A stretch of DNA of 64,000 nucleotides from Tropicibacter alexandrii (GTDB lineage: Bacteria > Pseudomonadota > Alphaproteobacteria > Rhodobacterales > Rhodobacteraceae): assembly GCF_003667315.2 (NCBI RefSeq), contig NZ_RCTZ02000019.1, positions 1 through 64,000 of the forward strand. Reading direction: 5' to 3'. The position numbers and the translations under genes are program-made. Position 1 is the first letter of the stretch; each line of letters starts with the position of its first letter. Below, in pieces: positions 1-12,044 of this stretch. The notes under the pieces were generated by a model, which saw nothing but the letters and a program-made list of their open reading frames with translations, was not told where the DNA came from and searched no databases.

Positions 1-14
1 CGTTTCAGTCCCAT
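1..14 (-). CDS. 5' end of an unidentified gene leaving the window
   Basis: On the minus strand an AAAGGAG Shine-Dalgarno sequence sits a few bases before an ATG whose complement is 12-14, and the frame runs off the window as Met-Gly-Leu-Lys. Only four codons are visible, so nothing can be said about the product. It follows the M20 fragment at 59-346 in the same direction. Confidence 0.4.
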
Positions 15-58
15 GGTTCGTCTCCTTTGCTGCAATAAATGCTATCAAAGGAGCGGCA

Positions 59-346
59 TCAAACCGCGACACGTCCATAGTCGACCTGCGCCGTTTCCGT
101 CATCGGCAGCGCGTCAAGCTCGGCGCGAAAGGCGATGCACCGTCCCGATTGGCCGGTGCCCTGCAAGGTGCCGACGACGCCGGTGCCGCCGATCCCGGTT
201 GCGACCGTATAGCCAAGATCGCGCAGGCGATCGGCCACGAAGCGTGCGGTGCGCGCCACCTCGAACCCGGTTTCGGGATGACGGTGCAGGTCGCGCAGCC
301 AAGCGTGGGCCGTTTCGCGGTGGGTATCATACCAAGTGTCGAACAT
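59..346 (-). pseudogene. Truncated M20-family amidohydrolase (N-terminal fragment)
   Basis: The 95 codons match the start of hippurate hydrolase/N-acyl-amino-acid amidohydrolases of peptidase family M20: a WLRDLHRHPE segment, then FRAELDALPM, which is the usual RADMDALP metal-site region. Family members run to about 380-400 residues, with the Cys-Gly-His metal motif just after this point. Here the frame ends in TGA soon after DALPM, and the next gene starts about 45 bases downstream, so the catalytic remainder is missing. I read it as a deletion remnant. The start has a GGAGCC upstream and lies divergent from marR. Confidence 0.7.
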
Positions 347-444
347 GCGACGCGGGCTCCGTTTTGTCTTGCATCAAGGCCTCTGCGCTCCAATACTTGT
401 CGGATAAGATAGTTGCTTTATAAGACTAAATGGCGTGGAAATCA

Positions 445-471
445 GGGTATGATGTGATACCCTCAGGGTAT
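445..471. promoter_or_regulatory. Palindromic operator at the marR promoter
   Basis: GGGTAT (445-450) and ATACCC (457-462) form a perfect inverted repeat with a 6-base spacer, and a third GGGTAT follows at 466-471. The core GGTAT-N6-ATACC recurs upstream of catB and twice in the catA divergent promoter. Its position directly before marR fits autoregulation by the MarR protein. The binding protein is inferred. Confidence 0.65.
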
Positions 472-493
472 GACGCAGGCAGAGGGGCGAGAT

Positions 494-988
494 ATGCAGC
501 GCGACAAGACATTCAGAAACGAACGGCTGACCTACCGTCTGAGCATCGTCGCCCAAGAGGCCATCACCGCCAATGACGCGATTTTCCTGCGCGAGACCGG
601 ATGCAGCATCCGTGACCTGCGCGTGTTGCGCCTGATCGACGACACGCCCGGCACCACCTTTGCGGAGATCTCGAAAGCCACTGGTTTTGAAAGAAGTTTG
701 ACGTCCAGAATCATCCAGTCCCTGCTGGGGACGGGGCTGATCCAGCGGGAAAACTCACAGGCGGATGCCCGTGTTTTCCTGCTGTCGACCACCGACAAGG
801 GCAAGGAGGTCCGCCAAGTCGCGCGGCAACTGTCCGACCGGCTGGAAGTCATCCTGACCGATCCGCTGTCCCGCCAGGAGCTGCGCGTTTTCAACGAAGT
901 GCTCGAACGTCTGGGGGCTTGGGTGACCTCCGAAGACTATCGCAGCGCTCTGCAGGAAGAGACCAAAAATAATCACAACGTAAAATAA
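494..988 (+). CDS. MarR-family transcriptional regulator
   Basis: A protein of about 164 residues with the MarR winged-helix layout: an N-terminal dimerisation helix, a recognition region reading EISKATGFERSLTSRIIQSL, then a wing with DARVFLLSTTDKG (the D-x-R wing motif) and C-terminal helices. I prefer the ATG at 494 because GAGGGG lies six bases before it. The in-frame ATG at 470 overlaps an operator half-site and has no well-spaced ribosome site. The palindrome 445-462 lies just upstream, and the same palindrome occurs at the catB and catA promoters. A role as regulator of benzoate/catechol catabolism, with an aromatic acid or CoA ester as ligand, is inferred from that. The family is clear; the ligand is unknown. 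Confidence 0.85.
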   Translation: MQRDKTFRNERLTYRLSIVAQEAITANDAIFLRETGCSIRDLRVLRLIDDTPGTTFAEISKATGFERSLTSRIIQSLLGTGLIQRENSQADARVFLLSTTDKGKEVRQVARQLSDRLEVILTDPLSRQELRVFNEVLERLGAWVTSEDYRSALQEETKNNHNVK

Positions 989-1039
989 TCGTGACGTGAG
1001 AATATAAAACGGCAATCAAGTCTCCGCCTACCAAGCTGA

Positions 1040-1170
1040 CATGGGAGAGGCCGCCACGCGGCGCCGAAGGAGCAACCCCCCGGAAACTCTCAGGCAAAAG
1101 GACCATGATCGGCACGGGCGTCTGAAGCGCTGGCGCGCCTTTGCCGCCACCCGTGACAGAGCGGATCATG
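1040..1170 (+). ncRNA. Glycine riboswitch (one full aptamer plus a ghost-like second half)
   Basis: The leader carries the glycine aptamer signature: GGGAGAGG near 1043, GCCGAAGGAGCAA near 1062-1074, then AAACTCTCAGGCAAAAGGAC ending at 1103. A second complete aptamer is not seen. What follows has CATGATC (1104-1110) pairing with GATCATG (1164-1170), CACGGG (1113-1118) pairing with CCCGTG (1150-1155), and a GACAGAG at 1155-1161 like the 3' end of second aptamers. This resembles a singlet riboswitch with a ghost aptamer. CCTCC (1175-1179) could pair with the GGAGG ribosome site (1205-1209), a possible translational switch. It precedes an amino-acid dehydrogenase and the bhc genes, which fits induction by glycine. 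Confidence 0.85.
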
Positions 1171-1214
1171 CCTGCCTCCGGGCGGGACGGAACCTTGGGT
1201 CGCGGGAGGATACC

Positions 1215-2486
1215 ATGACCAGAATAGCCGTTATCGGCGCCGGAATCACCGGCGTCACCACCGCGTCGAGCCTGATGGACCGGGGCCATGACGTGACCTT
1301 GTTCGACCGCAACCGCTATGCGGCGATGCAGACGTCCTTTGCCAATGGCGGGCAGTTGTCTGCCTCGAATGCCGAAACGTGGAACCGCTGGTCGATGATC
1401 TTCAAGGGCCTGAAATGGATGATGCGCCGGGGCGCGCCGCTGTTGGTCAATCCCAAACCCAGCTGGCACAAATACAGCTGGATGGCCGAGTTCGTGGCCG
1501 CGATCCCGCACTACCGCGCCAATACGGTCGAGACCACGCGCATGGCCATCGCCGCGCGCGGTCTGTTGCGGGAAAAGGCCGCGCGCCACGGGTTCGACTT
1601 CGATTGCGAAAATCGCGGCATCCTGCACATCTACACCGACAAGGCGGAATTCGACCACGCCACAGAGGTCAACAAGCTGCTCGCCGAGGGGGGCTTGCAC
1701 CGTCGCGCGGTTGCGCCCGACGAGGTGCGCGCCATCGAACCGGCGCTGACCGGCGCCTTCTATGGCGGCTACTACACCGAAAGTGACTTCACGGGTGACA
1801 TCCACCGGTACACGACAGGGCTGGCGAAATCCATCGAGGCGGGCGGCGCCGTGCTGCGCTTTGGCACCGATGTCGAGACGATCAAGGTGGATGACACGGG
1901 CGTGCGCCTGACCTGGAGCCGCAACAGCGAGAGCCAGACGGACCAGTTCGATGCGATCGTTGTCTGCGCGGGGGTCGACAGCCGCCGCATCGCCGCACAG
2001 TTGGGCGACCGGGTGAACGTCTATCCGGTCAAAGGGTATTCGATCACCGTACAACTCGACGACGAGGCCAGCCAGCAGGCGGCGCCTTGGATCAGCCTCT
2101 TGGATGATGAGGCCAAGGTCGTCACCAGCCGTCTTGGCAAGGATCGGTTCCGCATCGCGGGCACGGCAGAATTCAACGGCTACAACCTCGATATTCGCGA
2201 CGACCGCATCCGCCCGCTTGTGAAGTGGTGCGAACGCTTTTTCCCCGGTGTCAGCACCGAACATGCGATCCCATGGGCCGAGCTGCGCCCGATGATGCCG
2301 AACATGATGCCAAAGGTGGGGCAGGGGGTCCGTGACCGGGTGTTCTACAATACTGGCCACGGCCATCTGGGTTGGACATTGTCGGCGGTGACCGCCGAGA
2401 TGGTGGCAGACACGGTTACTGCCTCATTCGCGGGCCGCAGCGCGCGCAACATGCCTTTGACACAGGCCCGGAAGGGGGCCGCGTGA
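1215..2486 (+). CDS. FAD-dependent D-amino-acid dehydrogenase/glycine-oxidase-like protein (DadA family)
   Basis: The protein has 423 residues. An N-terminal Rossmann FAD motif (GAGITG, residues 8-13) and a FANGGQLS segment are followed by the C-terminal DadA-type NTGHGHLGWTLS. DAO/DadA enzymes oxidise an amino acid to the 2-oxo acid and ammonia, passing electrons to FAD and then usually to the respiratory chain. The start at 1215 has GGGAGGA eight bases upstream; an in-frame ATG at 1041 lies inside the riboswitch and is rejected. The gene follows a glycine riboswitch and overlaps bhcB by one base (TGATG), so glycine, or a glycine derivative, oxidised to glyoxylate is a plausible reaction. 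That substrate is inferred; other D-amino acids remain possible. Confidence 0.85.
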   Translation: MTRIAVIGAGITGVTTASSLMDRGHDVTLFDRNRYAAMQTSFANGGQLSASNAETWNRWSMIFKGLKWMMRRGAPLLVNPKPSWHKYSWMAEFVAAIPHYRANTVETTRMAIAARGLLREKAARHGFDFDCENRGILHIYTDKAEFDHATEVNKLLAEGGLHRRAVAPDEVRAIEPALTGAFYGGYYTESDFTGDIHRYTTGLAKSIEAGGAVLRFGTDVETIKVDDTGVRLTWSRNSESQTDQFDAIVVCAGVDSRRIAAQLGDRVNVYPVKGYSITVQLDDEASQQAAPWISLLDDEAKVVTSRLGKDRFRIAGTAEFNGYNLDIRDDRIRPLVKWCERFFPGVSTEHAIPWAELRPMMPNMMPKVGQGVRDRVFYNTGHGHLGWTLSAVTAEMVADTVTASFAGRSARNMPLTQARKGAA

Positions 2487-3439
2487 TGACGATCCCGACA
2501 TATGACGACATGCTGGCCGCGCATGAGCGGATTGCACCGCATATCCGGCGCACGCCGGTGCGGGTGTCGGATTATCTCAACGAGATGACCGGGGCAGAGC
2601 TGTTTTTCTGATGTGAGAACTTTCAGGAGCCGGGCGCCCTCAAGGTGCGCGGTGCGGCCAATGCGGTGTTCGGACTGGACGAGGCGCAGGCGGCGAAGGG
2701 TGTAGCGACCCATTCCAGCGGCAACCACGCGTCCTGCCTCAGCTACGCCGCCATGTTGCGGGGCATTCCCTGCAACGTGGTCATGCCACGCACCGCGCCT
2801 CAGGCCAAGAAGGACACCGTGCGGCGCTATGGTGGGGTCATCACCGAATGCGACCCCTCGACCACTTCGCGCGAGGCCACATTCGCGCAGGTGCAGGCCG
2901 CGACGGGGGGCGATTTCGTGCACCCCTACAACGATCCAAGGGTGATCGCCGGGCAGGGCACCTGTTCGAAGGAATTCATGGAGCAGACCGGCGGGCTCGA
3001 CATGGTCGTGGCGCCGATCTGCGGCGGCGGGATGATCTCGGGCACCTGCCTGACCTTGGCGACACTGGCGCCGGAAACCCGCGTCATCGCGGCGGAGCCA
3101 GAGCAAGCCGATGACGCCTATCGCAGCTTCAAGGCGGGGCATATCATCGCCGATGACGCGCCGAAGACCATCGCGGACGGGCTTTTGGTGCCGCTCAAGG
3201 ACCTGACATGGCACTTCGTGTCGACCCACGTGGCCGAGATCTACACCGCGTCCGAGGCCGAGATCATCGAGGCAATGAAGCTGACGTGGAAACACCTGCG
3301 CATCGTCATGGAGCCGTCGAGCGCGGTGCCGCTGGCGTCCATTCTGAAGAACCCCGACGCCTTTCCCGGCAAGCGCGTCGGTGTCATCATCACCGGCGGC
3401 AACGTCGATCTGGACAGATTGCCCTGGATGCAGGGTTGA
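2486..3439 (+). pseudogene. bhcB: beta-Hydroxyaspartate dehydratase, interrupted by an in-frame TGA
   Basis: This is a fold-type II PLP dehydratase of the serine/threonine dehydratase family, closest by my reading to erythro-beta-hydroxyaspartate dehydratase (3-hydroxyaspartate to iminosuccinate plus water). The frame starts at ATG 2486, overlapping the previous stop, and reads through ELFF to a TGA at 2609-2611. It then continues in the same frame with CENFQEPGALKVRGAANAVF to 3439. The codon lost is normally Lys in the ELFFKCENFQ motif. The PLP lysine in ALKVRGA and the SSGNHA motif survive. The phosphate loop reads ICGGGMISG, with Cys where the first Gly of GGGG is usual. Restored length would be 317 residues. 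It is either a nonsense-mutated gene or a sequencing error; downstream initiation would lack the N-terminus. Confidence 0.85.
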
Positions 3440-3450
3440 GGAGATTTCCA

Positions 3451-4617
3451 ATGAAAGACACGAACAATCTCGACGCCTACGAGGTGGGCTATGACATTCC
3501 GGCCAAGCCGGGCATGGACGAGGCCGATATCCAGACCCCGGCTCTGGTGCTGGACCTCGATGCGCTGGAACGCAACATCAAGAAGATGGGCGACTATGCC
3601 CGCGCGCACGGGATGCGCCACCGGGCGCATGGCAAGATGCACAAGTCCGTGGATGTGCTGAAGCTACAGATGGACTTGGGCGGGGCCGTGGGCGTCTGCT
3701 GTCAGAAGGTGTCCGAGGCCGAGGTCTTTGCCCGCGCCGGGATCAAGGAAATCCTTGTCTCGAACCAAGTCCGGGACCCGGTGAAGATCGCGCGGCTGGC
3801 ACAACTGCCCCGGCTCAGCGGCGGCGAGGTGATCGTTTGCGTCGATGACCCCGCCAATGTCGCGGACTTGTCCCGGGCCGCTGGCGCGGCGGGCACCGTG
3901 CTGGGCGTGTTTGTCGAAATCGACTGCGGCGCGGGGCGCTGCGGTGTGACCACGACACCGGCTGTGGTCGAGATCGCGAAGGCCGTGCGAGAGGCTGATC
4001 ACCTCATCTATCGCGGCATTCAGGCTTATCAGGGTGCGATGCAGCACATGGACAGCTTTGCCGACCGCAAGGCCAAGATCGACGCCGCCATCGTGCAGGT
4101 CCAAGATGCGGTCGATGCGCTGACGGCCGAAGGGATCGCCACCGACCTTGTGTCGGGTGGCGGCACCGGCTCGTATTACTTCGAGGCCAATTCCGGGCTG
4201 TATAACGAAGTGCAATGCGGGTCCTATGCGTTCATGGACGCGGATTACGGGCGCATTCTGGACCAGAACGGCCAGCGCATCGACGCGGGCGAATGGGAAA
4301 ACGCCTTCTTCCTGCTGACCTCGGTGATGAGCCACGCCAAAGCCGACAAGGCGATCTGCGACGCGGGGCTCAAGGCGCAATCCGTCGATAGCGGCCTGCC
4401 GGTGATCTTTGGGCGCGATGACGTGGAATACATCAAGTGCTCGGACGAGCACGGGGTCATCGCCGACCCGGCGCAGGTGCTGAAGGTCGGGGACAAGCTC
4501 CGTCTGGTGCCCGGTCACTGCGACCCGACGGCCAATGTGCATGATTGGTACGTGGGCGTGCGAAATGGCAAGGTGGACTGCGTCTGGCCCATCTCGGCGC
4601 GCGGCAAGGCCTACTGA
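3451..4617 (+). CDS. bhcC: beta-Hydroxyaspartate aldolase (DSD1/D-threonine-aldolase fold)
   Basis: The protein has 388 residues and an alanine-racemase-like N-terminal barrel. The PLP lysine is in RAHGKMHK (Lys62), SGGGTGSYYF lies mid-protein, and the C-terminal metal-site motif PGHCDPT (His356, Asp358) marks the D-threonine aldolase/D-serine dehydratase family. In the beta-hydroxyaspartate cycle the enzyme condenses glycine and glyoxylate to erythro-beta-hydroxyaspartate. The start at 3451 has GAGGAG upstream. It lies 11 bases after bhcB and just before bhcD, the order known from Paracoccus. The neighbours make hydroxyaspartate a better substrate guess than D-threonine. A longer in-frame extension upstream overlaps bhcB and is not used. 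Confidence 0.88.
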   Translation: MKDTNNLDAYEVGYDIPAKPGMDEADIQTPALVLDLDALERNIKKMGDYARAHGMRHRAHGKMHKSVDVLKLQMDLGGAVGVCCQKVSEAEVFARAGIKEILVSNQVRDPVKIARLAQLPRLSGGEVIVCVDDPANVADLSRAAGAAGTVLGVFVEIDCGAGRCGVTTTPAVVEIAKAVREADHLIYRGIQAYQGAMQHMDSFADRKAKIDAAIVQVQDAVDALTAEGIATDLVSGGGTGSYYFEANSGLYNEVQCGSYAFMDADYGRILDQNGQRIDAGEWENAFFLLTSVMSHAKADKAICDAGLKAQSVDSGLPVIFGRDDVEYIKCSDEHGVIADPAQVLKVGDKLRLVPGHCDPTANVHDWYVGVRNGKVDCVWPISARGKAY

Positions 4618-4646
4618 TTTCGCCGCGCGTTCCGCGCGTCGACCCG

Positions 4647-4699
4647 CCGGGGGCTCCGCCCCCGGACCCCCGAGGTATTTTTGGACCAAAGAAGGCAGG
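4647..4699 (+). repeat. Dispersed intergenic repeat, copy 1 (GC hairpin plus TTTTTGGACCAAAGAA)
   Basis: CCGGGGGC (4647-4654) pairs with GCCCCCGG (4658-4665) around a TCC loop. It is followed by CCCCCGAGG and TATTTTTGGACCAAAGAA. Related sequence occurs at 44262-44293, 49556-49612 and 51717-51775. It fills the gap between bhcC and bhcD and may terminate or attenuate transcription. Confidence 0.7.
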
Positions 4700-4716
4700 G
4701 TTTCCCTGAGAGGCTG

Positions 4717-5682
4717 ATGTGGATTGTTCCCGAAAAAGAGATCGCGGGTCTGATGACGCGCGCGGCGGCCTTTGACGCCGTCGAGCAAGTATTTGCGGCC
4801 ATGGCGGCGGGCGAGGCCCGGAACTTCGCCGTGGTGCGCGAGGCCATCGGTCACGAGGATGCGCTGTACGGTTTCAAGGGCGGGTTCGATCGCACTGGGT
4901 CGACGCTGGGCCTGAAGGCGGGCGGCTACTGGCCGAACAATCTGGCGAGGCGCGGGCTGATCAACCACCAGTCCACCGTGTTCCTCTTCGACCCGGACAC
5001 CGGCCAACCTCGGGCCATGGTTGGCGGCAACCTGTTGACGGCGCTGCGCACGGCGGCGGCCTCGGCCGTGTCGATCCGGCATCTGGCGCGAGCCGATGCG
5101 CGGGTCTTGGGGATGATCGGTGCGGGCCATCAGGCGGGCTTTCAACTGCGCGCGGCACTAGAGCAGCGCTCGTTCGACAAGGTCATCGGATGGAACCGCA
5201 GCCCCGAGCGGCTTGCCGGGCTTCGGGCGATTGCCGAAGAGGCTGGTATTCGCTTTGAGGCCGTGGACCTGCCTGGCATGATGCAGGCGGATGTGGTGAT
5301 CACCATCACCTCGGCGTTCTCGCCGTCCTTGATGGCGGATCATGTCCGCCCCGGCGCGTATATCGCCTGCATGGGCACCGATACCGTCGGCAAACAGGAG
5401 GTCGAGGCGGCGCTTTTGGCGCGGGCCACGGTCTTTGCCGACGAGGTCGCGCAGAGCGTCACATTGGGTGAGGCGCAGCATGCGGTGGCGCAGGGGGCTC
5501 TGGGCGCGGGGGACATCACCCCGTTGGGCGCCGTGATCAACGGGACGCATCCGGGGCGCGTGGCGGACGATCAGGTCACTCTCTTCGATGGTACCGGCGT
5601 CGGGCTTCAGGATCTGGCCGTCGCCGCATCCGTGGTCGAACGGGCCATCGCGAAGGGGGGCGCCGTGAAGTTTGATATTTGA
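4717..5682 (+). CDS. bhcD: Iminosuccinate reductase (ornithine cyclodeaminase/mu-crystallin family)
   Basis: The protein has 321 residues. Family features are GLKAGGYWPNN (Lys67), NLLTALRTAAASAVS with Arg111, a Rossmann GAGHQA at 135-140, MGTDTVGKQE and DEVAQSV. The wording VVREAIGHEDALYGFKGG and the C-terminal FDGTGVGLQDLAVA match what I know of Paracoccus BhcD, which reduces iminosuccinate to L-aspartate with NADH. ATG 4717 (GAGAGG upstream) is chosen over an ATG at 4681 inside the repeat. The gene is last in the riboswitch operon and is followed by a terminator. With bhcB broken, its substrate supply is in question. Confidence 0.88.
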   Translation: MWIVPEKEIAGLMTRAAAFDAVEQVFAAMAAGEARNFAVVREAIGHEDALYGFKGGFDRTGSTLGLKAGGYWPNNLARRGLINHQSTVFLFDPDTGQPRAMVGGNLLTALRTAAASAVSIRHLARADARVLGMIGAGHQAGFQLRAALEQRSFDKVIGWNRSPERLAGLRAIAEEAGIRFEAVDLPGMMQADVVITITSAFSPSLMADHVRPGAYIACMGTDTVGKQEVEAALLARATVFADEVAQSVTLGEAQHAVAQGALGAGDITPLGAVINGTHPGRVADDQVTLFDGTGVGLQDLAVAASVVERAIAKGGAVKFDI

Positions 5683-5714
5683 CCGGCCAAGCCGCGTGAA
5701 ATCAACATCTTGCC

Positions 5715-5747
5715 GGGCGTCGCATTCTGCGGCGCCCGTTTTCGTTT
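5715..5747 (+). terminator. Rho-independent terminator after bhcD
   Basis: GGGCG..GCA (5715-5724) pairs with TGC..CGCCC (5728-5737) around a TTC loop and is followed by GTTTTCGTTT. It sits 33 bases after the bhcD stop and separates the glycine/bhc operon from the ben operon. Confidence 0.7.
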
Positions 5748-5775
5748 CGGGGCCGAGGCAAAGATGACTCTCAAG

Positions 5776-5791
5776 GGTATCACCCGAGACC
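5776..5791. promoter_or_regulatory. GGTAT-N6-ATACC-type operator upstream of catB
   Basis: The sequence reads GGTATCACCCGAGACC. Its reverse complement, GGTCTCGGGTGATACC, differs from the catA-promoter site (17408-17423) at one base. It lies 74 bases before the GTG start of catB and is a likely site for the same regulator, probably the MarR protein at 494-988. Confidence 0.55.
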
Positions 5792-5864
5792 CCAGCCATC
5801 ATCGACAGAAACCGGGTTGGAAGGGCATCTGGATGTCAACGAAACATGCAGATGGAATGACCCC

Positions 5865-7013
5865 GTGACCAAGATCGACCAGATCGAGACCGTGATCCTC
5901 GATATCCCGACCATCCGGGGGCACGTGCTGTCCATGGCGACGATGCGCACGCAAACCGCAGTTCTGGTGACGATCCGGTTTTCCGACGGCTCGGTGGGAG
6001 TGGGCGAGGGGACGACGATCGGCGGCCTCAGCTATGGCGCGGAAAGCCCCGAAAGCATCCAATCCGCGATCGACACCTATATTGCACCGGCGCTGATCGG
6101 GCGGGATGCGGATGACGTGAATGGCGCGATCCAGTTGGTCGACCGTCTGGTCAAGGCCAACCGCATCGCCAAGACCGCCGTTGAAATCGCGCTTTGGGAC
6201 GGGCTGGGCCAGCGTCTGGGCGTGCGGGTCTCGCAACTGTTTGGCGGCGCGGTGCATGAGCGCCTGCCGGTGGCGTGGACGCTGGCCTCGGGCAATTCCG
6301 ATACGGATATCGCCGAGGCGCAGGAGATGATCGAGACCCGCCGCCACAACATCTTCAAGCTGAAGATCGGCAAGCGGTCCGTCCGCGATGACGTGGCCCA
6401 TTTGGCGCGGATCAAGGCCGCCTTGGGCGATGCCGCCAGCGTGCGGGTCGATGTGAACACCGCGTGGTCCTTGCAGGATGCGCGTTGGGGCTTGCGCGGC
6501 CTTCAGGATGCGGGCTGCGAGCTGGTCGAACAGCCGATTCCCGCGCGGGATCGCGCCGGAATGGCCGAACTGACCCGCGATCATCAGATCGCGGTGATGG
6601 CCGATGAGGCCCTGAACGGCCCCGAGGATGCCTTGGCGGTTGCCAAGGCCCGCGCGGCGGATGTCTTCGCCGTCAAGATCGGCCAGTCCGGCGGGCTGAA
6701 GCGCGCATCCGAGGTCATCGCCATCGGGCAGGCCGCCGGGCTGGGGCTCTATGGCGGGACGATGCTGGAAACGGCGCTGTCCACCGCCGCCGCGCTGAAC
6801 CTGTTTGCCACCGTCGAGCACCTGGCTTGGGGCACCGAACTGTTCGGTCCGCTGCTGCTGACCGACGACATTCTGACCCAGCCGATCACCTATCGCGATT
6901 TCTGTGTCGAGGTCCCGCAGGGCGTGGGCATCGGTGCAACGCTCGACCCCGACAAGATCGCTTTCTACCGCCGCGACTCTGCGCGGATCACCCGCGCCAT
7001 TGCCGGCGAATAA
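5865..7013 (+). CDS. catB: Muconate cycloisomerase
   Basis: This is an enolase-superfamily protein (382 residues from GTG 5865) that lactonises cis,cis-muconate to muconolactone. The catalytic set is complete: KLK (Lys165, Lys167), Asp196 in VDVN, Glu222 in VEQP, Asp247 in ADEA, and Lys271 in VKIGQSGG. The N-terminal cap reads IETVILDIPTIRGH, as in CatB. GTG 5865 aligns with the family start; a TTG at 5817 would add 16 unmatched residues. It heads the operon catB-benABCD-ABC transporter, with an operator at 5776-5791. Confidence 0.88.
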   Translation: MTKIDQIETVILDIPTIRGHVLSMATMRTQTAVLVTIRFSDGSVGVGEGTTIGGLSYGAESPESIQSAIDTYIAPALIGRDADDVNGAIQLVDRLVKANRIAKTAVEIALWDGLGQRLGVRVSQLFGGAVHERLPVAWTLASGNSDTDIAEAQEMIETRRHNIFKLKIGKRSVRDDVAHLARIKAALGDAASVRVDVNTAWSLQDARWGLRGLQDAGCELVEQPIPARDRAGMAELTRDHQIAVMADEALNGPEDALAVAKARAADVFAVKIGQSGGLKRASEVIAIGQAAGLGLYGGTMLETALSTAAALNLFATVEHLAWGTELFGPLLLTDDILTQPITYRDFCVEVPQGVGIGATLDPDKIAFYRRDSARITRAIAGE

Positions 7014-7052
7014 CCACGACTTGCGCCCCGGCGCTTCAGGAGGAGGAAACCC

Positions 7053-8441
7053 ATGTTTACCCAAGCCACGCTGACCGATTTCGAGGCCCGTCTTGACGGC
7101 GCCATTCAGGACGACCCGGAAAACGGCGTGTTCCGCTGCCGCCGGGACATCTTTACCGACGAGGACCTGTTCGAGCTTGAGATCAAGCACATCTTCGAGG
7201 GCAACTGGATCTATATGGCGCATGAAAGCCAGATCCCGAACCCCGGCGATTACTTTACCCTGACCATGGGCCGCACGCCCGTCGTCATCACCCGCGACAA
7301 GGACGGCGAGCTGCACGCGCTGGTCAACGCCTGTTCGCATCGTGGCGCGCAGCTATGCCGCTTCAAGCGCCGCAACCAAAAGACGTTCACCTGCCCGTTC
7401 CATGGCTGGACTTTCTCCAACACCGGCAAGCTGTTGAAGGTGAAGGACCCCAAGGGCGCAGGCTACCCCGAGCAGTTCAACAAAGACGGCTCCCATGACC
7501 TGACCAAGGTCGCGCGGTTCGAGAATTATCGCGGTTTCCTCTTCGGCTCGCTCAACGCCGATGTGCAACCGCTGGAGGACTATCTGGGCGAGGCGCGCAA
7601 GATGATCGACATGATCGTCGATCAGGCCGACGAGGGGCTGGAGGTGCTGCGTGGGTCGTCCACCTACACCTATGACGGCAACTGGAAGCTGCAGGCCGAG
7701 AATGGCGCAGACGGCTATCACGTCTCTGCCGTGCACTGGAACTATGTCGCCACCACCGCGCACCGCACCGACGATGGCAAGGAAGACGCGATCAAGGCGA
7801 CCGATGCGTCGAAATGGGCCAAGCAGCGCGGCGGCTTCCACGCCTATGAGAACGGTCACATCCTGCTGTGGACGCAATGGGCCGACCCGACCAACCGCCC
7901 CGGCTATCCGCGTCTTGAGGAATGGACGGAAAAGCACGGCAAGACCAAGGCCGAATGGATGGTCGGCGTCCTGCGCAACCTGTGCCTGTACCCGAACGTC
8001 TTCCTGATGGATCAGTTTTCCAGCCAGATCCGCGTCTTCCGCCCCATCAGCGTCGATCAGACCGAGGTCACGATCTACTGCATCGCGCCGAAAGGCGAGA
8101 GCCAAGAGGCCCGCAGCCGCCGCATCCGCCAGTACGAGGACTTCTTCAACGCCTCCGGCATGGCGACGCCCGACGATACCGAGGAATTCCGGGCAACCCA
8201 GCGCGGCTATGCCGGCGCGGCGCATGCGCCATGGAATGACCTGACCCGCGGCGCGACCCAGTGGATCAAGGGGCCCGATGAGGACGCGCAGGCGCTGGGG
8301 ATCAACCCGGTCCTGTCCGGCGCGCGCACCGAGGATGAGGGCCTGTTCGTCATCCAGCACAGCAACTGGTCCGATCGCATGGCCAAGGCCATCGCCAAGG
8401 AACGCGAAACCGCCCCCGGCGCGGCCGTCGCAGCCGAGTGA
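7053..8441 (+). CDS. benA: Benzoate 1,2-dioxygenase large (alpha) subunit
   Basis: This Rieske non-haem iron oxygenase subunit of 462 residues forms the catalytic part of the enzyme converting benzoate to 1,6-dihydroxycyclohexa-2,4-diene-1-carboxylate. Rieske ligands are Cys94/His96 (CSHRGAQLC) and Cys114/His117 (CPFHGW). The mononuclear iron site is Asp220, His223 and His228 in [13 protein letters not shown]. The segment [26 protein letters not shown] is typical of BenA rather than naphthalene or biphenyl oxygenases. AGGAGGA precedes the ATG. It is followed by a frameshifted benB, which raises doubt about function in this strain. Confidence 0.93.
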
Positions 8442-8453
8442 GGAGAAAAGACA

Positions 8454-8968
8454 ATGACCACCGCAACGCTTGACCGCCCCGCACCCAAGACCGTCAGCTA
8501 CGAGGATATCCAGGCCTTTCTGTTCGCCGAGGCCCGCGCGCTGGATGACCGCGACTGGGATACGTGGCTGACCTTCTACCACAAGGATTGCCCATTCTGG
8601 ATGCCCGCATGGGACGACCTCGACACGCTGACCGAGGACCCGCAGAACGAAATGTCCCTGATGTATTACCCCAACAAGCAGGGGATCGAGGACCGTGTCT
8701 TCCGCATCAAGACGGATCGCTCCTCGGCCACCTCGCTGTCGGAGCCGCGCACCAACCACTACCGGTCGGGGATCGAAATCCTGTCCCGCGATGGGGCGAC
8801 GGTGACGCTGCGCTTCAACTGGCAGATCGCTATGGCAAGACCGACACGCATTGGGGCACGTCGTTCTACACGCTCGATGTCAGCGGGCCGCGTCCGCTGA
8901 TCACCGACAAGAAGGTGGTTCTGAAGAACGACACCATCCACCACGTGATCGACGTCTACCACATCTGA
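8454..8968 (+). pseudogene. benB: Benzoate 1,2-dioxygenase small (beta) subunit, frameshifted
   Basis: Frame one encodes 123 good BenB residues from ATG 8454 (GAGGAG upstream), including WLTFYHKDCPFWMPAWDD and NHYRSGIEIL, as far as TLRFNW. After base 8822 the frame becomes non-homologous. The BenB C-terminus resumes in another frame as DRYGKTDTHWGTSFYTLD and ends KNDTIHHVIDVYHI at 8968. At the junction the family normally has a few residues (His-Thr-Leu type) between NW and RY. The spacing suggests about 10 bases are missing, and adding 10 restores a 174-residue frame. It is either a genuine small deletion or an assembly error. Confidence 0.85.
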
Positions 8969-8996
8969 CCCCGTCAAATCGGACAGAAACAAACCC

Positions 8997-9022
8997 CCGC
9001 GCAGCCCGGGCAGGCTGCGCGG
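8997..9022 (+). other. Intercistronic hairpin between benB and benC
   Basis: CCGCGCAGCC (8997-9006) and GGCTGCGCGG (9013-9022) form a perfect 10-base-pair stem with a 6-base loop, just before the benC ribosome site. No T-run follows, so it is more likely a processing or stability element, or a leaky terminator, than a full terminator. Confidence 0.6.
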
Positions 9023-9040
9023 ACAAGGGAGGAGCATGCC

Positions 9041-10057
9041 ATGACCACCTATTCCATCGCCCTGAACTTCGAAGACGGCGTCACCCGGGTCATCCAGTGC
9101 GATGACGATGAAAAGGTGACCGACGCGGCCTTCCGGCAAAAGATCAACCTGCCGATGGATTGCCGCGACGGCGTCTGCGGCACCTGCAAGTGCTTCGTCG
9201 AAAAGGGCGCGTACGAGCTGGAATTCTATATGGACGAGTCGATGAGCGACGAGGAAGCCGAACAGGGCTACGCGCTCACCTGCCAGATGATCCCCGAAAG
9301 CGATTGTGTCGTGCGGGTCCCGACCACCTCCGCCCTGTGCAAGACCGCGCCGGAAAGCGTGGAGGCCGAGGTGTTGGGTGTGGACCGCTTGTCGGAAACC
9401 TCCTTTGGCCTGCGGGTCAAGCTGGCCAAGCCGGTGGGCTTCCTGCCCGGTCAATACGTCAATGTCAGCGTGCCGGGTGCGGGCGTGCACCGGTCCTATT
9501 CCTTTTCCTCTGCCCCCGGCGCGAGCGAGGCCACGTTCCTCATCCGCAACCTGCCCGGTGGCATCATGAGCAGCTACCTGTCGGACCGCGCGCAGCCCGG
9601 CGATGCGCTGACACTGACCGGGCCGATGGGCACCTTCTACCTGCGTCCCATCGAGCGGGCGCAGCTGTGGCTGGCGGGCGGCACGGGGCTTGCGCCCTTC
9701 ATGTCGATGCTGGAACAGGTAGCCGAGCAGGGCAGCGATCACCCAATCACGCTGTATTACGCCGTGACCCGTGCCGCCGATCTGGTGGAACTGGACCGCG
9801 TGATGCGCCTTGCCGAGACCATCGGCAATGTCACCGTCGTGACCGTTCTGGCCGAGGGCGAACACGCCCGCACCGGCTTCGTCACCGATCACCTGACGGC
9901 GGAGGACCTGTGCGAGGGCGAGGCCGATGTCTACCTCTGCGGGCCGCCGCCGATGGTCGACGCCGTGCGCGCACATTTCGCCAAGCTGGGGGTAGAGCCC
10001 TCCAGCTTCCACTTCGAGAAGTTCAACCCGACCGAAGAAGCGGCCGAAGCGGCATGA
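9041..10057 (+). CDS. benC: Benzoate 1,2-dioxygenase electron-transfer component
   Basis: The reductase has 338 residues: a plant-type [2Fe-2S] domain (Cys41, Cys46, Cys49 in CRDGVCGTC, plus Cys81), then a ferredoxin-NADP reductase-like FAD domain (HRSYSFSS) and an NADH domain (AGGTGLAPFMSML, YLCGPPPMV). It passes electrons from NADH through FAD and the iron-sulphur cluster to the BenAB Rieske centre. GGGAGGA lies before the ATG. The stop overlaps the benD start (ATGA). All cofactor motifs are intact. Confidence 0.93.
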   Translation: MTTYSIALNFEDGVTRVIQCDDDEKVTDAAFRQKINLPMDCRDGVCGTCKCFVEKGAYELEFYMDESMSDEEAEQGYALTCQMIPESDCVVRVPTTSALCKTAPESVEAEVLGVDRLSETSFGLRVKLAKPVGFLPGQYVNVSVPGAGVHRSYSFSSAPGASEATFLIRNLPGGIMSSYLSDRAQPGDALTLTGPMGTFYLRPIERAQLWLAGGTGLAPFMSMLEQVAEQGSDHPITLYYAVTRAADLVELDRVMRLAETIGNVTVVTVLAEGEHARTGFVTDHLTAEDLCEGEADVYLCGPPPMVDAVRAHFAKLGVEPSSFHFEKFNPTEEAAEAA

Positions 10058-10830
10058 CCCGATTTGCCAACAAGATCATGGTGGTGACGGGTGCCGCGCA
10101 AGGCATTGGCCGCCGCGTCGCGGAGCGCGCGGCAGGCGAGGGGGCGCGGGTGCTGATCGTCGACCGCTCGCCCGCGCGCGACGAGGTGGTGCAGGCCATC
10201 CGCGAAGCGGGCGGCGATGCTCAGGCCGTGAACGTCGATCTAGAAACGTGGGAGGGCTGCGCGCAGGCGATGCAGACCGCAGTGGATCACTGGGGCCGCA
10301 TCGACATCCTGATCAACAATGTCGGCGGCACGATCTGGGCGAAACCCTTCGAGCATTACGAACCCGTCCAGATCGACGCCGAGGTGCGGCGCTCGCTGTT
10401 TCCGACGCTCTATTGCTGCCGCGCCGCGCTCGATCACATGCTGCCGCGCGAGGCGGGGGTGATTGTCAACGTCTCGTCCATCGCCACGCGGGGCCTGAAC
10501 CGCGTGCCTTATGCGGCGGCCAAGGGCGGGGTGAACGCGATCACCGCAAGCCTCGCTTGGGAAGTCGCCGAACGTGGCATCCGCGTCGTCGCCACCGCGC
10601 CCGGTGGCACCGAGGCCCCGCCGCGCGTCGTGCCGCGCAACCCCAATGCTGAACAGGAACAACGCGAGGACTGGTACAAGACCATCGTCGACCAGACGAT
10701 CCAATCCGCGCTTACGAAACGCTACGGAACGCTCGACGAGCAGGCAGGCCCGATCCTGTTTCTGGCGTCGGATGAGGCCTCTTACATCACCGGCGTCACG
10801 CTGCCGGTCGGTGGGGGCGATCTTGGATAG
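10054..10830 (+). CDS. benD: 1,6-Dihydroxycyclohexa-2,4-diene-1-carboxylate dehydrogenase
   Basis: A classical short-chain dehydrogenase of 258 residues: TGAAQGIG cofactor loop, NNVGG, catalytic Ser in NVSSIATRG and Y-x3-K in PYAAAKGG. The VGGTIWAKPFEHYEP segment and C-terminal LPVGGGD are BenD-like. It oxidises and decarboxylates the benzoate cis-diol to catechol with NAD+. The ATG at 10054 overlaps the benC stop, and a longer frame upstream is inside benC. Confidence 0.9.
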   Translation: MTRFANKIMVVTGAAQGIGRRVAERAAGEGARVLIVDRSPARDEVVQAIREAGGDAQAVNVDLETWEGCAQAMQTAVDHWGRIDILINNVGGTIWAKPFEHYEPVQIDAEVRRSLFPTLYCCRAALDHMLPREAGVIVNVSSIATRGLNRVPYAAAKGGVNAITASLAWEVAERGIRVVATAPGGTEAPPRVVPRNPNAEQEQREDWYKTIVDQTIQSALTKRYGTLDEQAGPILFLASDEASYITGVTLPVGGGDLG

Positions 10831-10871
10831 ACCCTGAGGAGGGGTCATTCACCAACTGGAGGAAATCACAC

Positions 10872-12044
10872 ATGAAACGTTCACTACTGGCGGCCCTCGG
10901 GCTCGCCACCGGCCTTGCCGTGCCTGCCGCTGCCGAAGACCTCACGGTCGGGCTGCTGCTGCCATTTTCCGGCGTCTATGCGTCGCTGGGCAACGAGATC
11001 GAGACCGGGTTCAACCTTGGCCTCGCGGCATTCGGCGGTGAGACCGAAACCACATTCGAGATCGTCCGCGAGGACACCGAAGTCAAGCCGCCCGTCGCCT
11101 TGGGCAAGGCCAAGAAGCTGATCCTGCAAGAGAAAGTCGATGTCATGGTCGGCGTCGTCAGCTCGGGCGTGCTGGGGGCTGTGCGCGACATGGTGCATGG
11201 CGCGGGCGTGCCGCTGATCGTGGCCAATGCCGGCAACGACGAGGCCACCGGCGCGGCCTGCTCGCCCTACATCACGCGGATGTCCTTTTCCAACGGGCAG
11301 ATCAACCGCCCGATGGGCACATGGATGGCCGAACAGGGCATCGAAAAGGTCTTTACCCTCGCGCCCGACTACGCCGCTGGGCGCCAGATGATCGACCGCT
11401 TCAGCCAAAGCTTTACCGCCGCTGGCGGCGAGATCGTCGGGCAGGAATTCACCCCCTTCCAGAAGACACAGGATTTCGGTCCCTATCTTGCACAGGCCAA
11501 GGCCAGCGGTGCGGATGCGGTTTACGTGTTCTACGCGGGCGGCGAGGCGATTTCCTTCGTCAAGCAATATGACAGCTTTGGCCTCAAGGCGGATTTGCCG
11601 CTGTATGGCTCGGGCTTCCTGACCTCTCCGCTGTATGTGAATGCGCAGGGTGAGGCCGCCGAGGGCGTCATCACCGCGCTGCATTATGCGCCGACCATCG
11701 ACAACCCGGCCAATGCCGCCTTTGTCGCCGCCTTCACCGCAGAGACAGGGCGCGCCCCGTCGGAATTCGCGGTGCAGGGCTATGACGCCGCCCGCGTGCT
11801 GGTCGAGGCGGCCAAGGCGGGGGCCACCGACCGCGCGTCGCTGGCGCATGCGCTGCGGCAGGTGTCGTTCGAAGGGCCGCGCGGCAAGCTGGCGATCGAT
11901 CCGGCCACCAACAACATCATCCAGCCGGTCTATGTCTACGAGACCGTCGCAGGCGAGGGCGCGCTGACGCAAAAAGTGCTGGCCCAATTGCCGGCAGAGG
12001 CCGACCCGGCCAATGGCTGCGAGATGGTGCCGCTTTCCAATTGA
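10872..12044 (+). CDS. ABC transporter substrate-binding protein (LIV/aromatic type)
   Basis: The protein has 390 residues, with a signal peptide (about 1-21, ending AAAED) and a type I periplasmic binding fold starting LTVGLLLPFSGVYASLGNEIETGF. It is the binding component for the permeases and ATPases that follow, in the branched-chain amino-acid (HAAT) family, whose members also import aromatic acids. Its position directly behind benABCD and ahead of the remaining liv-like genes suggests benzoate or a related aromatic acid as ligand; this is inference. GGAGGAAA precedes the ATG. Confidence 0.85.
   Translation: MKRSLLAALGLATGLAVPAAAEDLTVGLLLPFSGVYASLGNEIETGFNLGLAAFGGETETTFEIVREDTEVKPPVALGKAKKLILQEKVDVMVGVVSSGVLGAVRDMVHGAGVPLIVANAGNDEATGAACSPYITRMSFSNGQINRPMGTWMAEQGIEKVFTLAPDYAAGRQMIDRFSQSFTAAGGEIVGQEFTPFQKTQDFGPYLAQAKASGADAVYVFYAGGEAISFVKQYDSFGLKADLPLYGSGFLTSPLYVNAQGEAAEGVITALHYAPTIDNPANAAFVAAFTAETGRAPSEFAVQGYDAARVLVEAAKAGATDRASLAHALRQVSFEGPRGKLAIDPATNNIIQPVYVYETVAGEGALTQKVLAQLPAEADPANGCEMVPLSN

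Follow-up and report, generated by a model that had tools for sequence, protein, structure and literature searches.

Architecture of the locus

A 64,000-nucleotide stretch of Tropicibacter alexandrii DNA (contig NZ_RCTZ02000019.1, positions 1 to 64,000; hereafter the window) carries near its start a single-aptamer glycine riboswitch, followed by dadA, which encodes an FAD amino-acid dehydrogenase, and by the bhcB, bhcC and bhcD genes of the beta-hydroxyaspartate cycle. The plus strand reads marR, glycine riboswitch, dadA, bhcB, bhcC, bhcD, catB, benA, benB, benC, benD and a substrate-binding protein gene, and a fragment of a hipO-like amidohydrolase gene lies ahead of marR on the minus strand (Table 1). 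We interpret the locus as probably being the glycine arm of an island for the catabolism of hippurate (benzoylglycine), and the window holds a decaying copy of that island. The genome of the window (G000) is a draft assembly with 99.96% completeness.

An earlier note on this DNA had described the order glycine riboswitch–dadA–bhcB–bhcC–bhcD without bhcA and had proposed a glycine-sensing route from two glycines to a C4 unit. The gene order is real: the aptamer is the sole Rfam match above the gathering score within the window, DadA belongs to the D-amino acid dehydrogenase equivalog PRK12409 (NF009074), and BhcC and BhcD score above the cut-offs of their NCBIfam equivalog models. The absence of bhcA also holds, as the operon has none and the best match to the BhcA model in the genome reaches 259.8 bits versus a cut-off of 650; a hidden bhcA was rejected for lack of any match above cut-off. 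The description of the operon stands for dadA, bhcC and bhcD, which contain no internal stop, but not for bhcB, which is interrupted by a TGA that had gone unnoticed. Similarly, the core operon had been recognized but not the flanking hipO-like and ben/cat genes.

Table 1. Coordinates of the annotated features in the window and the evidence for each.
Feature	Position	Strand	Evidence
hipO-like M20 amidohydrolase, N-terminal fragment (95 residues)	74..346	-	75% identity to residues 1-95 of the HipO-like protein of L035 (Ruegeria marina)
Half-site GGGTATCA (TGATACCC on +) upstream of marR, candidate operator	455..462	-	motif picked by eye
MarR-family regulator	470..988	+	open frame; MarR-type model matches all below cut-off
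Glycine riboswitch, single aptamer	1032..1115	+	RF00504 covariance model, 59.6 bits, gathering score 32; two-sided changes within the aptamer helices among 8 aligned leaders
Leader helix, candidate expression platform	1150..1206 (arms 1150-1163, 1193-1206)	+	consensus fold of 8 leaders
dadA, FAD amino-acid dehydrogenase (clade linked to the glycine riboswitch); putative glycine dehydrogenase	1215..2486	+	PRK12409, 699.1 bits, cut-off 494
bhcB, beta-hydroxyaspartate dehydratase, broken by TGA 2609-2611	2486..3439	+	568.2 bits read through, cut-off 550
bhcC, 3-hydroxy-D-aspartate aldolase	3451..4617	+	NF045642, 719.2 bits, cut-off 690
bhcD, iminosuccinate reductase	4717..5682	+	NF045643, 551.6 bits, cut-off 500; open frame from ATG 4717
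Half-site GGGTATCA upstream of catB, candidate operator common to marR	5775..5782	+	motif picked by eye
catB, muconate cycloisomerase family	5865..7013	+	TIGR02534, 508.4 bits, cut-off 334.95; GTG start by analogy with L035
benA, benzoate 1,2-dioxygenase large subunit	7053..8441	+	TIGR03229, 798.3 bits, cut-off 780.95
benB, benzoate dioxygenase small subunit, frameshifted	8454..8968	+	10-base deletion near 8826; two tblastn pieces in different frames versus L035
benC, benzoate dioxygenase reductase	9041..10033 (matched part; frame continues)	+	NF040810, 492.6 bits, cut-off 430
benD, benzoate diol dehydrogenase	10060..10830 (matched part including stop; start slightly upstream)	+	88% identity to BenD of L035, which passes NF040811
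Substrate-binding protein, syntenic with L035	10872..12044	+	89% identity to the L035 gene

Three lesions in the window copy

The TGA takes the place of codon 42 of bhcB, where at least 97% of 82 relatives encode lysine. Read through, the frame exceeds the BhcB cut-off with one TGA inside, so that bhcB does not count as intact here, and the open part after the TGA scores 478.2 bits, below the cut-off. A working BhcB produced by restart is unlikely, since the next in-frame start, a GTG at 2645, falls just past the lysine of the KVRGA motif, which we take to be the pyridoxal phosphate cofactor lysine of fold-type-II enzymes. Recoding of the TGA, for example as selenocysteine, was set aside because relatives carry lysine at the site, and a profile search detected no second BhcB above cut-off elsewhere in the genome.

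Three separate lesions lie within 9 kb: a truncated hipO, the bhcB TGA and a 10-base deletion in benB. The remainder of the hipO-like gene is missing from the genome, as the other six matches share just 30-42% identity. Positions 1-73 of the window do not continue hipO and by eye look like the margin of an insertion or repeat at which the assembly was interrupted. Relative to L035, benB lacks 10 bases and is split over two frames (tblastn), and the benzoate dioxygenase has probably also been lost in this strain through that deletion. Together, the TGA, the truncation and the deletion rule out an intact operon in this genome, and the two-glycine route cannot run from the window copy as read.

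We consider it quite improbable that the TGA is a sequencing or assembly error and that the cassette of this genome works. The assembly is a draft, and bhcB bears few other signs of erosion: its dN/dS against five relatives is 0.07-0.09, like intact pairs (pairwise values for bhcB, bhcC and bhcD span 0.04-0.25), and its three changes at columns conserved in at least 97% of sequences (the stop, F52L and G179C; rank 6 of 83, median 0) are not exceptional, bhcC and bhcD having three (rank 2 of 85) and four (rank 2 of 81), respectively. Against an error stand the presence of three separate lesions within 9 kb and the finding that benB is in one piece in all seven relatives in which it was found. 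Because bhcB is otherwise not exceptionally eroded and retains a low dN/dS, its loss looks recent.

The glycine riboswitch and its leader

A glycine riboswitch above the Rfam gathering score was found in all 18 dadA loci submitted (the window, 8/8, 2/2 and 7/7), and L085, a canonical bhc cluster without dadA, has none in the Rfam scan. We also scored 52 loci of the DadA clade, which overlap with the Rfam set and are best matches rather than a random sample, using the core motif CTCTCAGG[CT]. In 51 of them, the motif precedes dadA on the same strand by no more than 300 bases; the lone locus without it is L156, whose DadA is 49% identical to the query.

The consensus fold of eight riboswitch-to-dadA leaders contains two-sided changes in P1 (five pairs), in the next helix (two pairs) and in a leader hairpin (one pair). 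The covariation score of these leaders was reached by none of 500 shuffles, an outcome that kinship alone can produce; the structure was, moreover, derived from the same alignment. Slid versions of the alignment gave at most six pairs with two-sided changes versus eight in the actual leaders. The leader helix that follows (91.7% of cells paired) overlaps the start of the GGGAGGA ahead of dadA, which suggests a translational switch acting through a helix over the ribosome-binding site. As this helix has no two-sided changes, its role as the expression platform goes no further than a suggestion. The genome has a second glycine riboswitch, a tandem one at C44, ahead of a frame resembling gcvT (gcvT- and gcvH-like frames were recognized by eye).

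Intact and damaged cassettes in related genomes

Among 394 sampled genomes of the family of the window, BhcC was detected in 199 (E <= 1e-140) and this DadA in 42 (E <= 1e-110), and this DadA was found in 7 of 337 sampled genomes of the class. The family dadA loci that we compared are the best 30 of 42, plus those of G319 and G198. A genome search for riboswitch-dadA-bhcBCD lacking bhcA in the operon, as proposed in the earlier note, recovered the arrangement intact in four other genomes. Three of them, L035 (Ruegeria marina), L165 (G124) and L169 (G324), share the order TRAP subunit, hipO-like, marR, riboswitch, dadA, bhcB, bhcC, bhcD, catB, benA, benC, benD and substrate-binding protein in the fetched loci (tblastn), with hipO, dadA and bhcBCD free of stops. 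The fourth, the Rhodobacteraceae bacterium KLH11 (L083), has riboswitch-dadA-bhcBCD without the surrounding island and with open frames.

Other carriers are damaged or lack bhcBCD. A bhcB detectable by tblastn lies behind this dadA in eight loci, of which four are intact and four (the window, L168, L171 and L172) are not. In L168 (G304), bhcB ends after ~126 residues and is followed by what looks by eye like the start of a transposase, with no bhcC, bhcD, catB or ben match within the 18.5 kb fetched. The dadA of L172 (G198) matches at residues 203-404 only, and the fetched stretch has no riboswitch motif, marR or hipO, while the dadA of L171 (G178) changes frame near residue 42 and meets an in-frame stop ~25 residues on. 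The island occurs without bhcBCD in L166 (G211), L167 (G188) and L170 (G393; no HipO match). At 9395-9814 of L166, the start of bhcB abuts the end of bhcD in an apparent deletion scar (by eye), which indicates that the cassette was lost there. The bhcBCD genes look like an optional cassette in a probable hippurate/benzoate island, several carriers having lost it or holding a damaged copy.

The two bhcBCD sets of KLH11, L083 behind riboswitch-dadA and the canonical L085, are 99.3% identical over 3251 bases; judged by this identity, its cassette is clearly a recent copy. In a bhcC tree of 85 rows, the seven cassette-locus rows fall in three places: the window, L035, L165, L172 and L171 near each other with the canonical L033 among them, L169, and L083. 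The starred branches of the tree force at least four label changes, with bootstrap values not settled and with gain, loss and replacement not separable. The tree and the KLH11 copy indicate that bhcBCD came to lie behind riboswitch-dadA in separate lineages. In the same tree, L109, a contig labeled Spirulina subsalsa (a cyanobacterium) that carries bhcB and bhcC, pairs with Paracoccus aerius, perhaps through assembly contamination.

Genomic context of the DadA clade

The name D-amino acid dehydrogenase given to PRK12409 is an annotation, and it is from gene context that we assign a putative substrate to DadA here. Compared by sequence with solved structures, DadA comes closest to glycine oxidases, although the matches are weak, at 58 and 53 bits. 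In the plasmid survey, in which 14 of 65 plasmid records with this DadA were examined, malate synthase G or its remains lie directly downstream of riboswitch-dadA at six loci, and the other eight have none (tblastn). The malate synthase G gene is complete in Aminobacter (L114 and L118), Sinorhizobium fredii (L119) and Mesorhizobium (L202), starts at the end of the record in Aminobacter niigataensis (L207) and is in pieces in Sinorhizobium meliloti (L204). A gene for a GlcG-like heme-binding protein follows malate synthase G in L114, L118, L119 and L202, and directly follows dadA in L113. Across the 52 DadA-clade loci, the neighbors include bhcB in seven, malate synthase G in six and catB as the next gene in three.

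Glyoxylate is a substrate of malate synthase as well as of BhcC, and what the riboswitch senses is glycine; the simplest activity for DadA is thus conversion of glycine to glyoxylate. The context of the clade, with the riboswitch upstream and malate synthase G downstream, favors such production of glyoxylate from glycine.

A proposed route from hippurate to aspartate

In an intact island, the TRAP transporter and the HipO-like amidohydrolase would supply benzoate and glycine, and the benzoate would be processed by benABCD and catB. Binding of glycine to the riboswitch would raise expression of dadA-bhcBCD, the riboswitch behaving as an ON switch. DadA would then oxidize one glycine, releasing glyoxylate and ammonia and delivering the electrons to the respiratory chain, and BhcC would join the glyoxylate to a second glycine to form beta-hydroxyaspartate. 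Dehydration by BhcB would give iminosuccinate, which BhcD would reduce to aspartate. With glycine as the input, BhcA would be unneeded by stoichiometry; independence of the cassette from bhcA is a prediction from stoichiometry rather than from a natural example. The glycine-sensing route to a C4 unit put forward in the earlier note is plausible for L035, L083, L165 and L169, where the order is intact and the DadA context favorable, but not for the window, where bhcB, hipO and benB are broken. The malate synthase G encoded at C8 of the genome (63% identity) could still use glyoxylate made by DadA in this strain.

Several observations weigh against this reading, and they concern bhcA, the substrate of DadA and the specificity of the amidohydrolase in turn. 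A bhcA above cut-off is present elsewhere in nine of the ten carrier genomes searched, the exception being G178. All four carriers of an intact cassette (G124, G324 and the genomes of L035 and L083) are among these nine, the cassette is broken in both genomes without bhcA (G000 and G178), and none of the carriers searched combines an intact cassette with the lack of bhcA. The cassette might accordingly do no more than boost the ordinary beta-hydroxyaspartate cycle, with DadA providing glyoxylate and BhcA from a canonical cluster elsewhere completing the four enzymes, and the near-identity of the KLH11 bhcBCD to its own canonical set fits this explanation. We nonetheless hold it to be unlikely. 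No bhcA match was found in the 22 fetched island and cassette loci or in the window. Conversely, a set of 80 bhcC loci, the best-matching ones of at least 586, includes 71 with bhcA, all of which lack dadA; two (L035 and L083) have dadA and the riboswitch without bhcA, and seven have neither bhcA nor dadA, five of them with too little upstream sequence. The riboswitch motif occurs in two of the 71 bhcA loci, 3.5 kb (L042) and 2.8 kb (L080) upstream of bhcA and beyond bhcR, and is absent from all nine 4.2 kb loci that surround bhcA in the carriers, which leaves riboswitch control of canonical bhc clusters unsupported. BhcA would, in addition, have no necessary step when glycine is the input. 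A bhcA elsewhere under the same control, which the earlier note held to speak against its route, is lacking in this genome; all four intact carriers do have bhcA elsewhere, though with no riboswitch motif in those 4.2 kb.

The window DadA falls below the cut-off of the glycine oxidase ThiO model (TIGR02352, 126.8 versus 250.8 bits), and the Escherichia coli DadA is very poor on glycine, with a KM > 500 mM (PMC9436414). Moreover, neither bhcB nor malate synthase G nor catB was found in 36 of the 52 DadA-clade loci, most with just 1.5 kb flanks, and the loci in which malate synthase G was found are all of the rhizobial plasmid type. DadA could instead act on sarcosine, another N-substituted glycine or a D-amino acid, with the riboswitch reporting glycine as a product or by-product, in agreement with the family name and with weak matches to dimethylglycine oxidase, sarcosine oxidase and D-aspartate oxidase. 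We regard this as rather improbable because the riboswitch motif accompanies 51 of the 52 clade loci across varied contexts, and because malate synthase G and BhcC use glyoxylate, which is a product from glycine or sarcosine and not from D-alanine.

The HipO-like protein of L035 belongs to the M20 amidohydrolase family (TIGR01891, 323.8 bits versus 153.75) and passes this general amidohydrolase model only; the window has the fragment alone. Among proteins of solved structure, it comes closest to YxeP and to a homologue of an IAA-amino acid hydrolase. These features would suit an enzyme that releases a different acyl amino acid, in which case the island would not serve hippurate and the glycine and benzoate genes would adjoin for another reason. 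That explanation appears doubtful to us, as hipO, marR, riboswitch-dadA and catB-ben occur together in L035, L165, L166, L167 and L169, and benzoylglycine is the simplest compound that gives both benzoate and glycine.

The hippurate reading, extended to the whole glycine-riboswitch DadA clade of alpha-, beta- and gammaproteobacteria, would make these proteins dedicated glycine dehydrogenases whose glyoxylate goes to malate synthase G or to BhcBCD. In Ruegeria-like bacteria, DadA and BhcBCD would then turn two glycines into aspartate linearly and without BhcA, as the part of a hippurate island that deals with glycine. We consider the chances for and against this extended proposal to be evenly balanced.

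Other features of the locus

Half-sites matching GGGTATCA with at most one mismatch are present in seven of eight regions upstream of marR and in eight of eight upstream of catB, counts that refer to a motif picked by eye without a null model. The half-sites at 455 and 5775 are a possible shared operator of marR and catB. The substrate-binding protein has no NCBIfam match at E 1e-30, and its family label, ABC transporter substrate-binding protein, is taken from the names given to similar genes on plasmids. In no plasmid record are 80% of window positions 1-12000 covered in one place, in a set from which records very near the source genome may be excluded.

Relation to known systems and implications

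The beta-hydroxyaspartate cycle, encoded by bhcABCD, was reportedly described in Paracoccus denitrificans by Schada von Borzyskowski in 2019. The cassette has orthologues of BhcB, BhcC and BhcD in the same order, but bhcA is replaced by dadA and a glycine riboswitch; the cycle takes in glycolate or glyoxylate, whereas the cassette would encode a linear route with glycine as input. Glycine sensing is likewise tied to glyoxylate assimilation in the SAR11-type glycine riboswitch/malate synthase arrangement, on which Tripp is said to have reported in 2009. The cycle of Paracoccus denitrificans is summarized in PMC11166783. In the accessible text of Kazanov 2007 (PMC2211319), the malate synthase gene of SAR11-type metagenome fragments is preceded by a glycine riboswitch; there, malate synthase is the regulated gene and dadA or bhcBCD is not mentioned.

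Glycine oxidases and DadA flavoproteins resemble the window DadA in sequence family and in the glycine-type chemistry expected, but the window DadA scores below the ThiO cut-off and belongs to a separate clade (PRK12409) whose genes are preceded by a glycine riboswitch. The gcv genes under tandem glycine riboswitches, of which this genome also has one at C44, represent another glycine-sensing route of glycine catabolism; glycine cleavage yields CO2, ammonia and a one-carbon unit, whereas the bhc route would retain all four carbons of two glycines.

The literature searched contained no paper with both "glycine riboswitch" and "D-amino acid dehydrogenase". In the available part of PMC12848317, which mentions both the hydroxyaspartate cycle and riboswitches, the riboswitches named are B12 ones in a different context. 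The main text seen of two riboswitch surveys (PMC3766115 and PMC12452182) lists no such DadA-like or glycine oxidase gene, although their supplementary tables could list one, and the single mention of "glycine oxidase" in that part of PMC12452182 falls under TPP. Hippurate does not occur among the literature matches listed for Roseobacter/Ruegeria/benzoate.

If the proposed route is correct, it would allow carbon-conserving growth on glycine without glycine cleavage or a transaminase, and would provide a substrate for a riboswitch-linked flavoprotein clade annotated just as D-amino acid dehydrogenase. One island would then deal with both halves of hippurate, and comparing related genomes that carry intact or damaged copies would allow selection on the glycine arm to be studied.

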